From IMG/VR virus record IMGVR_UViG_3300045740_000123, positions 21,145-85,144 of that record: a stretch of DNA of 64,000 bases, one strand, 5' to 3'. Each line of letters starts with the position of its first letter. Position 1 is the first letter of the stretch. This stretch comes from a virus. Positions 20,913 through 43,324 of this stretch are shown in pieces. The notes below the pieces were generated by a model, which was not told the DNA's origin, ran no database searches, and was given only the letters and a program-made list of their open reading frames with translations. The translations under genes were made by a program, and so were the position numbers.

Positions 20913-21215
20913 ATGACAACCAAACGCCAGTACGACTACACCATTGGTGATCGCGTAGCAGAGCGTCCCAAATCCCATGGTATCTTTGCTGTACGCAATG
21001 AAACCAAAGATCGTATTCAGCAGTACAGGTCCCAGCGCTATGGCACTGTTGTTGGTATTAATCTGAAACCAAACAAGTCAGGTGCTAAGCAGAAGTTCTT
21101 GCTGATCAGGTGGGATCATTTGCAGACTCCCACGGAACATGCACAGATGAGGATCTGTCCTGCTGATCAACTCCAGCGTTTACAATCTGAGGGTTATGGA
21201 TTCGAAGTCGAATGA
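20913..21215 (+). CDS. Phage protein, unknown function
   Basis: 100 residues from ATG 20913. A small beta-rich protein with basic patches (YRSQRYGTVVGINLKPNKSG, FLLIRWDHLQTP), possibly an SH3-like or KOW-type barrel. Overlaps the cupin gene by 4 bases (ATGA). Unrecognised. Confidence 0.65.
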   Translation: MTTKRQYDYTIGDRVAERPKSHGIFAVRNETKDRIQQYRSQRYGTVVGINLKPNKSGAKQKFLLIRWDHLQTPTEHAQMRICPADQLQRLQSEGYGFEVE

Positions 21216-38923: not shown

Positions 38924-39783
38924 TGCCAAACATCTTTCAAAACTTTCTTAACCAAGTAACTTCTGGTTATCGCCAAGCAGATAAACAGTTGGGTGGATGG
39001 TTGCCAGGGGGTGGCACTGCTTCTCCTGTGACGCGTATAGTATTCCCTCCTCAAAGCTTTCCTGCCAGAAGCAAAGAGCTTCAACAAATGACAGGCGTCA
39101 AAGGACGTTTTGTAGATATTGATAAAACCCCGACAATTACGCGACAAATTGCACAAACAGTGGCTCCACTGTGGGGATCGCAGCCCTATGCAAACCCTTT
39201 GATTGGCGAGGTTGGCGCCCCCGGTTATAGGGGAGGAGCAACACCAAGAGAAAGACACTTAGAAATTCATGAGCTTGGTCATTTAAATCCAGCCGATAAA
39301 GGCATCTATAGTTATTTAGGCGTAGCTGGAAGATACTTGCAAGGACTTAGCAACAGCACTGGTAACTTACCTGTTGTTGATCTTTTGGCTGGTAAACTAA
39401 TGAAACATTTTGATGCACAGGAGGAAGACCGTGCAGAACGTTTTGCAGCTCGTTTTGCAACCCAAGGAAATTATCCTGCTCCTCAAATAAACCCTGAAGG
39501 AACCTCTGCCTATGGAGATCGGCTAAGAAAAGAAGGTAGTGAGATGAGCGAAAATGCTGTTAGTAGAATGCTTAATCCTTGGGGAATCCCTGAAAAAATA
39601 ACCGGGCTTGTAAATCAACAACGGGCATCTATTCTACAAAATGAATTATCACGCTCACTTCCTATTTATCGGGAACGTTTTGGAGGGGAAACCGAGCTTT
39701 CTCCAGAAAATTTAAAAGAAACAGAACGTCTTAACAATTTGGCAAAGCAAATAGAAGCTTTAGGAATTCAACCAAGGTACTAA
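38923..39783 (+). CDS. Zinc metallopeptidase-like phage protein
   Basis: 286 residues. HELGH at about 109-113 within RHLEIHELGHLNPADK is the HExxH zinc motif of metallopeptidases; a later DRAERFAARFA contains Glu residues that could be the third ligand. N-terminus (NIFQNFLNQVTSGYRQADK) looks structural. Possibly cuts virion or host wall proteins. Its 3' end overlaps an antisense HNH gene by 4 bases. Confidence 0.65.
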   Translation: MPNIFQNFLNQVTSGYRQADKQLGGWLPGGGTASPVTRIVFPPQSFPARSKELQQMTGVKGRFVDIDKTPTITRQIAQTVAPLWGSQPYANPLIGEVGAPGYRGGATPRERHLEIHELGHLNPADKGIYSYLGVAGRYLQGLSNSTGNLPVVDLLAGKLMKHFDAQEEDRAERFAARFATQGNYPAPQINPEGTSAYGDRLRKEGSEMSENAVSRMLNPWGIPEKITGLVNQQRASILQNELSRSLPIYRERFGGETELSPENLKETERLNNLAKQIEALGIQPRY

Positions 39784-40037
39784 GTTACTGACCAGTGCTC
39801 AAGCCTGTGGCAATTGCAGCATAACGGGATGCACTTGCTGATCTCTTCTTCTACTCGGCCCCAGCCGTAGCCATGGTTCACCATGTCAGATATGTTGTTA
39901 TCCTTGTCTCCAATGTGGTGAAACTCTAAGACACGGTGATCATCCAACCCACACTTCTTGCACTGCAGAGTCTTCTTGTACTCCAGAAGCTTCTGTCGAT
40001 TCTTGTTGATACGTTCCTTGGATTGACTCCAGGGCAT
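39780..40037 (-). CDS. Small HNH endonuclease
   Basis: 85 residues. CKKCGLDDHRVLEFHHIGDK, then CIPLCCNCHRLEH: the canonical HNH core with two zinc pairs and the HH of the active site. Among the smallest in this window. It is antisense to the metallopeptidase end and 47 bases from the broken tRNA-Pro end. Probably a free-standing homing or nicking enzyme. Confidence 0.85.
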   Translation of the reverse strand: MPWSQSKERINKNRQKLLEYKKTLQCKKCGLDDHRVLEFHHIGDKDNNISDMVNHGYGWGRVEEEISKCIPLCCNCHRLEHWSVT

Positions 40038-40125: not shown

Positions 40126-40518
40126 CTATTTAGCTTTTTGTTTCTTCACCTCTCTTTGCTTTTTACCCGCCTGGCTTTTTGCTGTTTTGCACAAATCACA
40201 CCGACATCCATATTTGGAATACGACCAAACTGTCCCATGTGTTTGTCGTTTTTCGTTGGTCCAGCCTTTACCATAACTTCCTTCTTCTAAAGTCTTAATG
40301 TGATGACAGGGTTTGCAAAGTAACTGACACTTTTTAAGTTCTGTTTCTAATGTATCCCAATGGGTTGACCACTTGCAGCTAATATCAAAACTTTTAGAAG
40401 TGTGATCTATGTGGTCAATATGCAACAAATCAGAACAGCCGCATTTAATGCAAACACCCCCAAGAAAATCAATCATCTCTTGGCGACGTTTTTTGTAATC
40501 AGAAATTTTTGAAACCAT
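40126..40518 (-). CDS. HNH endonuclease inside a tRNA-Pro gene
   Basis: 130 residues from ATG 40518 (an upstream TTG frame adds glycine-rich residues and is unlikely). CIKCGCSDLLHIDHIDHTSK and CQLLCKPCHHIKT form the HNH core; CRCDLCKTAKSQAGKKQREV is a C-terminal finger and basic tail. Its last codons (GCT AAA TAG) carry the 7-bp repeat GCTAAAT also found at the end of the tRNA 5' half. Confidence 0.85.
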   Translation of the reverse strand: MVSKISDYKKRRQEMIDFLGGVCIKCGCSDLLHIDHIDHTSKSFDISCKWSTHWDTLETELKKCQLLCKPCHHIKTLEEGSYGKGWTNEKRQTHGTVWSYSKYGCRCDLCKTAKSQAGKKQREVKKQKAK

Positions 40519-40523
40519 AAAAA

Positions 40524-40594
40524 TCGGGGTGGAAGGTACTGCCCCTTCTCCTCCGCCTCCCAAAGACGGCGTGATACTTTTCTACTACACCCCG
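40524..40594 (-). tRNA. Degenerate tRNA-Pro-like structure (UGG) inside the insertion
   Basis: 71 nt that fold as a cloverleaf: acceptor CGGGGTG/CACCCCG (7 bp) with A73, T8-A9, anticodon stem CCGTC/GGCGG with loop TTTGGGA (UGG, proline), T-stem GAAGG/CCTTC. But the D-arm pairs poorly and the T-loop is GGCAGTA, not TTCRANY. Acceptor and anticodon resemble the interrupted outer tRNA-Pro. It may be a replacement tRNA, a decoy or a decayed copy. Confidence 0.45.
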
Positions 40595-40768: not shown

Positions 40769-41317
40769 TTATACAGATTCATTGGGTGTTTTCCAGAAAT
40801 AATCATCGCATTCTCCAAGCCGACCCCACTTCTCTTCCCGATAATCAATATCTTTAGTTAAAAAATCAATAGCGTTTTTCAATATTTGGATATTGTCTTT
40901 GGCGTGGCCAAGCATTGTATTGCATCTATGGCATAAAAGCCCTCTAACCTTGCCTGTTTCATGGCAATGATCTACACAAAATGTTTTCTTTGGAGCGGGA
41001 CTGTTTGTTTTGCATATGGCGCAACAACCTTTTTGAATTTCCAGAATTTGTTTGTATCTACCCCTAGGTAAACCATAGGAACGCAAACGATCAAGATCAT
41101 TAGCGTGTTCTAAATTGTTTTGGCGCCATCGATTGTAATTTTCTTGATGGCGCTTTTTGTTTTTTCTTGACCATTCCCGGCTGTACTCGTTTGTACAAAC
41201 ACGGCACCAAGTATTTAAACCATCTTTGTTTTTCTTTGCTTTGTTAAAAGCATCCTTGGATTTAATCTCTAGGCATTTGGTGCATTTTTTCGTTGGGAGT
41301 TTGCCAGAAATAGTCAT
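40769..41317 (-). CDS. HNH endonuclease (endonuclease VII type) whose ends mimic its target
   Basis: 182 residues. KCTKCLEIKSKDAFNKAKK and CRVCTNEYS form an N-terminal zinc knuckle; core CCAICKTNSPAPKKTFCVDH, GKVRGLLCHRCNTMLGHA. The first codons overlap the end of the upstream gene in another frame; the last 20 residues (WGRLGECDDYFWKTPNESV) are the displaced C-terminus of that same gene, read in frame. So the gene is wedged exactly at the target's 3' end. Confidence 0.9.
   Translation of the reverse strand: MTISGKLPTKKCTKCLEIKSKDAFNKAKKNKDGLNTWCRVCTNEYSREWSRKNKKRHQENYNRWRQNNLEHANDLDRLRSYGLPRGRYKQILEIQKGCCAICKTNSPAPKKTFCVDHCHETGKVRGLLCHRCNTMLGHAKDNIQILKNAIDFLTKDIDYREEKWGRLGECDDYFWKTPNESV
40782..40829 (-). 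repeat. Displaced C-terminal codons of the 41262-41951 gene
   Basis: Bases 40782-40829 closely match 41293-41339 on the same strand (TTGGGxGTTTxCCAGAAATAxTCATCGCA and on). Both encode KWGRLGECDDYFWxTPNE. The upstream copy is the present end of the gene; this copy, now fused to the HNH gene, is probably the old end. Confidence 0.85.
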
Positions 41318-41951
41318 CGCACTCGCCTAGGCGCCCCCATTTTAACGCTTTTTCAGAGTCAAAGTATCGAGTCGATACCTTAAAGTCTGGTGTCTTTAGA
41401 TCGTGGTTGGTGAGCGATGGATCAACCATTCGACAACGATTGTTGGGATAAGCGCCAATTTGACCGTTGTCCAAAGCCACAATGTTGTGGGACTTATGCT
41501 CGTCAGGAAATTCCGCAAAGTAAAAATCCGGTTCGTTCCTATGAGGATGATAATTGTCAACCGTAAATAGGTATGTGCCTTTCATTACACCTGCACTACG
41601 TGTCATAACTTGAAACTCCATATTGAAGATCAAGTTCTTTTCGACAACCGTAAGACCATGATCAAATCCATTCCAGAACTGCAGGTCAGTTAGCTCTAGG
41701 TCAGGAGTGGGTGCTTGAGGTTTGTCCGGATAATCTGGATCCCATGCCAGGAATGCACTGATGGGAAGCTTGTCGTAAAGGGCTCCGTACTCAGTAAGAT
41801 AAGTCTCAAACTGAAGTGCTCTACCAGTTAAAGATTTACAACTTACCCAATAACCAGGCGTATATTCACCATGACCGTCTCTTAGGTCACGTAAGTATTC
41901 ACGCCTTACCCAAACCTTGACGGGCGGGACATTGGCCACAAGAGTTGTCAC
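41262..41951 (-). CDS. Conserved phage protein (YLRDLRDGHGEY type), C-terminus swapped
   Basis: 229 residues. VWVRREYLRDLRDGHGEYTP, GRALQFETYLTEYGALYDKL and FNMEFQVMTRSAGVMKGTYL match a protein I have seen in several marine phages; function unknown. End KWGRLGECDDYFWQTPNEKM differs from the displaced copy at 40782. The first start (GTG 41951) abuts a hairpin, so a slightly later start is possible. Confidence 0.75.
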   Translation of the reverse strand: MTTLVANVPPVKVWVRREYLRDLRDGHGEYTPGYWVSCKSLTGRALQFETYLTEYGALYDKLPISAFLAWDPDYPDKPQAPTPDLELTDLQFWNGFDHGLTVVEKNLIFNMEFQVMTRSAGVMKGTYLFTVDNYHPHRNEPDFYFAEFPDEHKSHNIVALDNGQIGAYPNNRCRMVDPSLTNHDLKTPDFKVSTRYFDSEKALKWGRLGECDDYFWQTPNEKMHQMPRD

Positions 41952-42077: not shown

Positions 42078-42284
42078 TCAGGATTTACTTCTTTGATAAC
42101 GCCTTGCTGCGCGTCCAGCAAGTTTTGCTTTTCTGGTGTTTGGTACAAATTGTTTGCCTTCGCGGCTAGCCTCGCGTTTCTTTTGGTCAGTCTCTTGCCG
42201 TTCTTCTTTAGATAATGAGGCCCAGGCAGACTCAGGTAGATAACGTTTGGTGTATCCCTTTTGAATTGCTTTATCTGCCATCAT
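42078..42284 (-). CDS. Small basic phage protein ('YTKRYLPESAWxSL' type)
   Basis: 68 residues (two adjacent ATGs, 42284 and 42281). YTKRYLPESAWASLSKEERQ followed by FVPNTRKAKLAGRAARRY is a small basic domain I know from phages and large viruses, often beside DUF5872-like proteins. Overlaps the end of that gene here (AAATGATG). Function unknown; DNA binding is possible. Confidence 0.75.
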   Translation of the reverse strand: MMADKAIQKGYTKRYLPESAWASLSKEERQETDQKKREASREGKQFVPNTRKAKLAGRAARRYQRSKS

Positions 42285-42592
42285 TTACTATCCTTGTATT
42301 TCTTTGCAGCTTCTTTAGCTTTACCGCGCTTTTCATACTCATCTTTCGTCATCCATTTCTCCTTGCCCCACTTCTCCAGGGACTTCTGCTTCTCACCTTT
42401 ACCTCCTTTGTATCCACCGCCTGCACTCTTGTATTCCTGTGCCACAAGCTGAGCTTTTCTAGCCGAAATAATTAGTTAGCCTTACGGCTACGACCATTCT
42501 CCTGGTTTACCGCCACGGCCTTCACGCATAACTTTGTTTTTGATGCGCTCACGCAGGTCTGGTTTTGTGTACTTGCTTTTATCTTCAGCCAT
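42281..42592 (-). CDS. DUF5872-like gene interrupted by a 24-nt insert between TCG codons
   Basis: From ATG 42592 34 codons read YTKPDLRERIKNKVM...GGKPGEWS, then TAG. After 24 nt (42467-42490) the same frame resumes: SARKAQLVAQEYKSAGGGYK, KGEKQKSLEKWGKEKWMTKD and a basic end to TGA 42281. Family members I know run straight through GQWSARKAQ, so the two parts make one normal protein of about 95 residues. Either the gene is broken, or ribosomes skip the insert as in T4 gene 60. It follows an HNH gene with an 8-base overlap. Confidence 0.75.
42467..42490 (-). other. 24-nt insert: TAG, perfect hairpin, flanked by TCG codons
   Basis: Minus strand TCG-[TAGCC-GTAA-GGCTA-ACTAATTATT]-TCG. The stem TAGCC/GGCTA is perfect with a GTAA tetraloop and starts at the stop codon. 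The insert has three in-frame stops (TAG, TAA, TAA) and keeps the frame. Identical TCG codons flank it, as matched take-off and landing codons do in known bypass elements. Confidence 0.7.
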
Positions 42593-43193
42593 AACTTCCT
42601 CGCTCTTTAAGATAAGTGACTGCGTTTGTCAATACATCTATATTATCACCAAATAAACCTAAGGCTCTATTGCACTCTTTGCATAATAAACCTCTGAACT
42701 CATTGGTTTGATGATTATGGTCCATGGCTAAAGATTGTTTATCCTTGGGAGGCTCTTGGCAAATTGCGCATAAACCTTCCTGGGACTCAAACACAATGTC
42801 GTATTGCTCTTTTGTTATCCCTCTGCGTTCGTATTTTTTGTGATTATGATGCAATAAATCTTGCCCTTGTTTTTTAACTTTCTGATAATGCTCCTTATTA
42901 TTGTTTACCCATTTATCCCAACTTAACTTATTGCAAGTTTTACATGAAGAATGAAGGTATAATTTACCGTCTTGCTTTCTTCTTCTAAAGCAATCCCAAT
43001 CTAAATAATGAGCACATTTAGAGCATTGTTTTTGACCGTCTGCTCCATACAATAATCTAAATCGACGGTTGATCAAAGATCTACAATCTTTGCATACGCT
43101 GTCTCTTTTTATATTACCAGCAGAGTTATACCCTTTGTTCCCAAAATTTTCATGCGGCTTTCGGGTTCCGCATTCTCGGCAAAGCTTTTGCAT
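42585..43193 (-). CDS. HNH endonuclease (endonuclease VII type) before the DUF5872-like gene
   Basis: 202 residues from ATG 43193; a GTG at 43232 overlapping the stop of the remnant (GTGA) is an alternative start. Three zinc knuckles (CRECGTRKPHENFG; QCSKCAHYLDWDCF; CKTCNKLSW), then CAICQEPPKDKQSLAMDHNH and FRGLLCKECNRALG. Long for its group (other copies 153-182). It overlaps the start of the interrupted gene by 8 bases and is preceded by a remnant of the same target. Confidence 0.85.
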   Translation of the reverse strand: MQKLCRECGTRKPHENFGNKGYNSAGNIKRDSVCKDCRSLINRRFRLLYGADGQKQCSKCAHYLDWDCFRRRKQDGKLYLHSSCKTCNKLSWDKWVNNNKEHYQKVKKQGQDLLHHNHKKYERRGITKEQYDIVFESQEGLCAICQEPPKDKQSLAMDHNHQTNEFRGLLCKECNRALGLFGDNIDVLTNAVTYLKERGSYG

Positions 43194-43228
43194 TGGTTGG
43201 TTTGTGCTTTTCTTACAATAGCACAAAA

Positions 43229-43324
43229 TCACTGCCCAGGCTTGCCGCCTTTAGAACCAGCCATTACGCGATCTTTAATCCTCTCGCGTAACTCCGGTTT
43301 CGTGTATTTGTTTTCCTGAGATAT
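43229..43324 (-). pseudogene. Remnant N-terminus of a DUF5872-like gene
   Basis: Reads ISQENKYTKPELRERIKDRV, then MAGSKGGKPGQ and TGA, closely similar to the start of the gene at 42592 (KYTKPDLRERIKNKVM...GGKPGE). The first codon is ATA where ATG would be expected. Synonymous sites differ widely between the two copies, so the downstream one came from another source. Confidence 0.8.

Follow-up and report, generated by a model that had tools for sequence, protein, structure and literature searches.

A candidate translational bypass element within a mobile HNH cassette in a viral DUF5872-like gene

An interrupted gene beside an HNH endonuclease gene

We analysed a stretch of 64,000 nucleotides (nt) of viral DNA (the window), positions 21,145–85,144 of the 85 kb IMG/VR virus record IMGVR_UViG_3300045740_000123, in which 24 nt split a small DUF5872-like gene and very probably form a programmed translational bypass (ribosome hopping) element, carried by a mobile HNH cassette. 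All parts of the interrupted gene and of the cassette lie on the minus strand (Table 1). Read on that strand, the first open reading frame (ORF1) runs to ...GEW-TCG and is followed by TAGCC-GTAA-GGCTA-ACTAATTATT, after which TCG-GCT opens the second (ORF2, SARKAQ...), which continues in the frame of ORF1 to a stop at 42281. An earlier reading of the window from its letters alone (the sequence-only reading) had described a frame that stops at TAG after a TCG codon and resumes in the same frame 24 nt later at another TCG, with a perfect hairpin starting at the stop and three in-frame stops in the insert; each of these features is present.

Joined, ORF1 and ORF2 match PHROG 17747 at 4e-19. Against Pfam DUF5872 (PF19197) they reach 24.9 bits (E=3.4e-5), which is below the curated cut-off of 27.5, and we therefore call the gene only DUF5872-like. 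The RYLP... C-terminal domain, which other families (e.g. L040 and L044) encode as a fusion with the DUF5872-like protein, is in the window a separate gene (42078–42284, minus strand) that overlaps the end of ORF2 by 4 nt. The window DNA polymerase is 67% identical to that of Synechococcus phage S-EIVl and a phrog_3704 protein is 86% identical, from which we infer that the virus is an S-EIV1-like cyanophage.

Upstream of ORF1 lies a gene for a presumed homing endonuclease of the HNH/endonuclease VII type, whose reading frame overlaps the ATG of ORF1 by 8 bases (42585–42592), and on its far side stands a truncated copy of the target's 5′ part that has lost its ATG. Both had been noted in the sequence-only reading, and both hold. 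Comparison with empty sites places the cassette insertion point between the TG of the target's Trp codon and the Ser codon: L085 and L029 are 91% identical up to the TG of TGG and 94% identical from the Ser codon onward, and L008 and L009 are 98% identical upstream. ORF1 is the replacement for the 5′ part that was cut off by the insertion. The 5′ end of the cassette (43201–43228) holds GTAAGAAAAGCACAA, which resembles the target's own GCTAGAAAAGCTCAA, in an inverted repeat before the HNH start; it may be a remnant of the target or a control hairpin.

Table 1. Positions in the window of the interrupted gene, the gap and the parts of the cassette.
Feature	Position	Strand	Details
ORF1, replacement 5′ gene part (N′)	42491..42592	-	34 codons, MAEDKSKYTKPDLRERIKNKVMREGRGGKPGEWS; ends ...KPGEWS, TCG-TAG; 42592..42488 including TAG
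Shine–Dalgarno (SD)-like AGGAG	42499..42503	-	5 nt ahead of take-off codon
Take-off codon TCG	42491..42493	-	
24-nt gap	42490..42467	-	TAGCCGTAAGGCTAACTAATTATT = TAG CCG TAA GGC TAA CTA ATT ATT; 3 in-frame stops
Hairpin UAGCC-GUAA-GGCUA	42477..42490	-	starts at UAG stop; perfect 5-bp stem, GNRA loop
A/T-rich linker between hairpin and landing codon	42467..42476	-	6–16 nt in relatives
Landing codon TCG	42464..42466	-	
ORF2, remainder of DUF5872-like gene	42281..42466	-	SARKAQLVAQEYKSAGGGYKGG..., 61 codons + stop; opens TCG GCT AGA AAA GCT CAG
Whole mobile cassette	42467..43229	-	763 nt: conserved 5′ end, HNH, replacement 5′ part, take-off codon, gap
HNH / endonuclease VII gene, presumed homing endonuclease	42585..43232	-	215 residues; Pfam PF02945 E=1.3e-22; PHROG endonuclease VII 8e-34
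Cassette 5′ end, inverted repeat	43201..43228	-	TTTGTGCT...AGCACAAA; conserved across cassettes; pattern for a hairpin-blind search
Truncated local copy of target 5′ part	43229..43306	-	YTKPELRERIKDRVMAGSKGGKPGQ, stop; ends ...GGKPGQ, stop; ATG lost; beyond HNH

Recurrence of the gap and conserved signals at the joint

The exact 24-nt gap occurs in 15 further contigs, each time between GEW-TCG and TCG-SARKAQ. A wider hairpin pattern returned 53 stretches, 48 of them within the DUF5872-like gene (48 IMG/VR contigs from 46 metagenome datasets) and always at the same codon, which disposes of a recent random mutation in a single clone, an origin that the sequence-only reading had allowed for. It had also proposed looking for the gene with and without the gap in related phages: the 48 contigs hold 40 distinct interrupted genes, and 93 uninterrupted genes formed the comparison set. 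Genes were classed by the distance from the ORF1 Trp codon to the ARKAQ codons of ORF2, the insert itself not being consulted, and three hairpin-blind searches were added against pattern bias. Those with the whole protein and with ORF1 only gave 7 and 17 interrupted genes, respectively, all with the same stem; that for the far 5′ end of the cassette gave 23 contigs, the gap being present in 21, while the other two stop short of its position.

The gap measures 20 nt in two genes, 21 nt in 11, 24 nt in 14, 25 nt in seven, 26 nt in five and 30 nt in one, so that ORF2 resumes in all three frames. It is conserved after every gap length, as in bypass of the T4 gene 60 type, where coding can resume in another frame.

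The codons flanking the gap are nearly fixed. All 40 interrupted genes have TCG as take-off codon; 38 of them also land on TCG, the matched pair that characterises bypass of the T4 gene 60 type, and two land on TCT. The same serine is encoded in the 93 uninterrupted relatives by TCT (51), AGT (15), TCA (10), TCG (8), AGC (7) and TCC (2), and TCG is the rarest Ser codon in the long ORFs of the window. A search of the window for a tRNA reading UCG found none, tRNA-Leu being the only tRNA there. The natural variants that land on TCT after a TCG take-off (L100 and L135) are well suited to testing which tRNA-Ser the element employs.

A UAG opens the gap in all 40 genes and begins a UAGCC/GGCUA stem closed by a stable GNRA tetraloop (GTAA, GTGA, GCAA, GGGA or GAAA), which is the stop and stem-loop arrangement of T4 gene 60. 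The TC dinucleotide is absent from all gaps, and hence no UCN codon precedes the landing site in any frame. In the window the hairpin has a folding energy of −7.1 kcal/mol, and 7 of 200 shuffled sequences fold equally well. When a 91-nt stretch was folded alone the gap hairpin was not favoured; a ribosome sitting on the take-off codon would cover the upstream part that competes with it in that fold.

Two further features lie within ORF1. An upstream Gly codon is GGA or GGG in 40/40 interrupted genes versus 15/93 uninterrupted ones (Fisher p=8e-22), a choice that places an SD-like GGRGAR 5 nt ahead of take-off; at two other Gly positions close by, GGT or GGC predominates. At position Y-3, 29 residues ahead of the Ser at take-off, Lys is found in 40/40 interrupted genes versus 2/48 close uninterrupted relatives, a difference for which shared descent of the cassette is a possible source. 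In T4 the nascent-peptide signal KKYK acts about 30 residues before the take-off residue (PMC5009743, PMC11194080). As bypass signals the SD-like stretch and the Lys are suggestive only, because ORF1 descends with the cassette.

In all 93 uninterrupted relatives W and A are separated by one Ser only, and the expected product is therefore GEW-S-ARKAQ, which is what a peptidyl-tRNA-Ser would give on moving from the first TCG to pair again at the second. GEWSAR is encoded by some of the uninterrupted genes too. The joint proposed in the sequence-only reading, GEWS followed by SARKAQ, thus stands in that both halves together match the DUF5872-like family, and needs correction to one serine.

An HNH gene or its remnant lies upstream in 38/40 interrupted versus 0/93 uninterrupted genes, which together with the empty sites fits a homing-endonuclease cassette. 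The HNH gene is reduced to remnants or gone in L018, L087, L100, L109, L116, L118, L120, L121 and L128, and in these the gap and ORF2 persist. In a tree of ORF2, interrupted and uninterrupted genes are interspersed, and the well-supported branches alone force at least five changes of state, the pattern of a mobile element. The HNH enzyme would cut intact genes, and the gap would protect the cassette-bearing gene from it while keeping the protein.

Selection on ORF2 and competing explanations

Nei–Gojobori comparisons gave median ratios of non-synonymous to synonymous change (ω) for ORF2 of 0.07 in the long form, 0.10 in genes with a 25- or 26-nt gap and 0.057 with a 20-nt gap (one pair), compared with 0.064 in uninterrupted genes. 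In the first eight codons after landing in the genes with 25- or 26-nt gaps, synonymous difference (pS) is 0.53 and non-synonymous difference (pN) 0.013. None of the ORF2s of the 40 distinct interrupted genes has a frameshift or early stop. ATG, GTG and TTG are absent from the first 25 codons of most long-form ORF2s, including L101, which has a 20-nt gap. The substitution pattern indicates that ORF2 is under strong purifying selection, even after out-of-frame gaps, and that it is translated. No conserved start codon serves it. Relatives whose second half lacks a sign of translation, another outcome foreseen in the sequence-only reading, did not emerge: ω of 0.057–0.10 in interrupted genes is as in intact ones.

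Several observations weigh against bypass. The take-off codon, the SD-like stretch and the Lys at Y-3 all belong to the shared cassette, and some of their constancy may be inheritance. A 5′ or 3′ stem-loop as in T4 is not conserved: in RNAalifold analyses (38 and 39 sequences) the gap hairpin alone was well supported upstream and nothing downstream, with no other conserved structure. The truncated local copies of the target are not clearly decayed (ω 0.09), relaxed selection having been sought there and not seen. In the short-form clade (gaps of 25, 26 or 30 nt) nearly all genes, e.g. L098, L109, L120 and L134, have an ATG as ORF2 codon 7, and a second, shorter, separate product is conceivable there.

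For this last reason we retain termination at UAG followed by separate re-initiation as a minor rival, an unlikely one, under which ORF2 would be a small protein of its own made from a nearby internal start, either the ATG at codon 7 in the short-form clade or a GTG at codon 8 in the window. Re-initiation would likewise account for the frame independence. It is poorly matched to the long-form ORF2s noted above that have none of the three start codons, the out-of-frame L101 among them, and to the SARKAQ residues ahead of the ATG, which are conserved as amino acids with synonymous sites free (the pN and pS values just given). Nor would it need matched TCG codons or a hairpin starting at the stop.

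Stop-codon readthrough, or frameshifting through the gap, is less likely still. A 24-nt gap is a multiple of three, and in the 20-nt gap the landing frame is open back to the take-off codon. In every other distinct gap the landing frame runs into a stop, often 1–2 codons ahead of landing, and readthrough or a simple frameshift is therefore not the common explanation; most gaps hold two or three in-frame stops, and a 25- or 26-nt gap has one in the landing frame, 1–2 codons before the landing site. No slippery sequence was seen, and readthrough would insert residues that occur in no intact relative.

A pseudogene, in which a remnant of HNH insertion broke the gene and ORF2 became dispensable, was the main alternative in the sequence-only reading. 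In its favour, the gene is indeed divided by the cassette, and the start is missing from the window's truncated copy. We consider a broken gene highly improbable, as the insert recurs in 48 contigs from 46 metagenomes, 0/40 ORF2s carry a frameshift or early stop, and ω equals that of intact genes. Removal of the gap from the RNA, by splicing or by cleavage and ligation, is equally hard to credit, since 20–30 nt is far below the size of a self-splicing intron, one TCG would also have to go to yield W-S-A, and only the hairpin is conserved.

Proposed mechanism and relation to known bypass systems

The proposal that a second type of mobile bypass cassette uses TCG and serine, which the sequence-only reading had put forward, thus gains support from the free gap length, the retained codon pair and UAG hairpin, selection on ORF2, the restriction of HNH genes to interrupted loci and the empty sites. 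In the mechanism we propose, the ribosome would read the 34 codons of ORF1 and arrive at UCG, where UAG and the hairpin would occupy the A site or lie close to it. The tight GNRA hairpin and the SD-like AGGAG immediately 5′ of the P site would probably help peptidyl-tRNA-Ser to release its codon, and the nascent chain may also assist. The ribosome would then slide, presumably efficiently, across a 20–30 nt gap without a UCN codon and re-pair at the first one, the landing UCG, and decoding would go on with GCN MGN AAR... to give one DUF5872-like protein in which the joint holds only one Ser.

As the sequence-only reading had pointed out, T4 gene 60 (GGA-UAGCC-UUCG-GGCUA-...-AUUAUU-GGA) has the same plan, with UAG directly after the take-off codon, a hairpin, matched codons and an HNH neighbour. 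In both systems the hairpin begins at the stop and has an identical UAGCC/GGCUA stem with a stable tetraloop, the gap need not be a multiple of three, and it is present in some relatives only; the HNH gene adjoining T4 gene 60, mobA, is annotated as a pseudogene, much like the HNH remnants found here. The small stem-loop that follows the T4 take-off codon occupies the A site and assists the onset of sliding (PMC11194080). The systems differ in codon (GGA/Gly in T4, UCG/Ser here), in gap length (47 nt, or 50 nt with the landing codon, versus 20–30 nt), in loop (UUCG versus GNRA) and in target (a topoisomerase versus a DUF5872-like gene). T4 has the 5′ and 3′ stem-loops whose counterparts are not conserved here, whereas the present elements have the SD-like stretch before take-off, and their cassette carries a replacement 5′ gene part and an EndoVII-type HNH gene. 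Codon pair, stop, hairpin and frame independence agree with T4, and the 5′ and 3′ stem-loops do not. A mechanism like that of T4 is likely. The window and T4 gaps share the 5-bp stem and ATTATT before landing, stretches too short to separate descent from convergence. Because the stem must begin with UAG, only two further pairs are left, whose identity could easily arise twice, and we do not claim descent from the T4 gap.

Other systems are less similar. The byp elements of Magnusiomyces capitatus mitochondria are also short, numerous inserts bypassed in translation; these 81 cases are seemingly context-independent, with take-off and landing codons not always matched (PMC5009743), and they act on mitochondrial ribosomes, whereas the present inserts occur in phages and come with a specific hairpin, pair of codons and endonuclease gene. 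Bypass has likewise been proposed in a phage gene for the terminase of Streptomyces phage Hau3 (PMC5009743), with a proposed dependence on UUA decoding and no insert in a mobile cassette. Free-standing homing endonucleases of the T4 mob/seg type also place an HNH gene between target parts at an otherwise intact site. In the split genes covered by one review two separate polypeptides are made (PMC2988022); here one gene is rebuilt from a replacement 5′ part and a bypassed gap.

Searches beyond this gene were largely negative. The loci compared contain 430 distinct TAGCC-N4-GGCTA hairpins, and those resembling bypass were confined to the DUF5872-like genes and T4 gene 60; the other computed candidates look, as judged by eye, like antisense or intergenic ORFs. 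A pattern allowing any take-off codon gave no additional gene, bacterial and archaeal genomes gave two matches, both due to chance, and a T4-type loop pattern in viral contigs gave no new bypass gene among the matches listed. No cultured phage with this gap was found, S-EIVl carrying an uninterrupted gene, and in the literature searched bypass was not described for cyanophages or for any DUF5872 gene.

To our knowledge, T4 gene 60 has for decades been the one proven case of efficient programmed bypass in bacteria. The elements described here probably make up a widespread family of minimal natural bypass elements, each with a matched pair of UCG codons, a GNRA hairpin built on the UAG and a short linker that can be of any length; these elements would work on cyanobacterial ribosomes without the long T4 signal set. 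Phage homing cassettes would use them as a translation-level intron that spares the product of the invaded gene and should hide the gene from the nuclease. Reviewers of the field had anticipated shorter counterparts in which the codons match (PMC5009743). Here a single gene provides dozens of natural variants, which differ in gap length, loop and linker and have two landing codons, and which allow the rules of take-off, sliding and landing to be read from evolution and tested directly. These variants support the view that bypass gaps spread within homing-endonuclease cassettes. In practical terms, gene callers split such genes in two.

A 3.5-kb stretch of the minus strand contains up to four ORFs that resemble HNH/endonuclease VII genes (39780–40037, 40126–40563, 40769–41317 and 42585–43232), the Pfam scan having covered the last two. 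The EndoVII/HNH gene at 40769–41317 ends with KWGRLGECDDYFWKTPNESV, which copies the tail of the adjacent phrog_3704 gene (41262–41951, ...KWGRLGECDDYFWQTPNEKMHQMPRD), making the region 40769–41951 on the minus strand a further case of HNH insertion in which part of the neighbour is duplicated.
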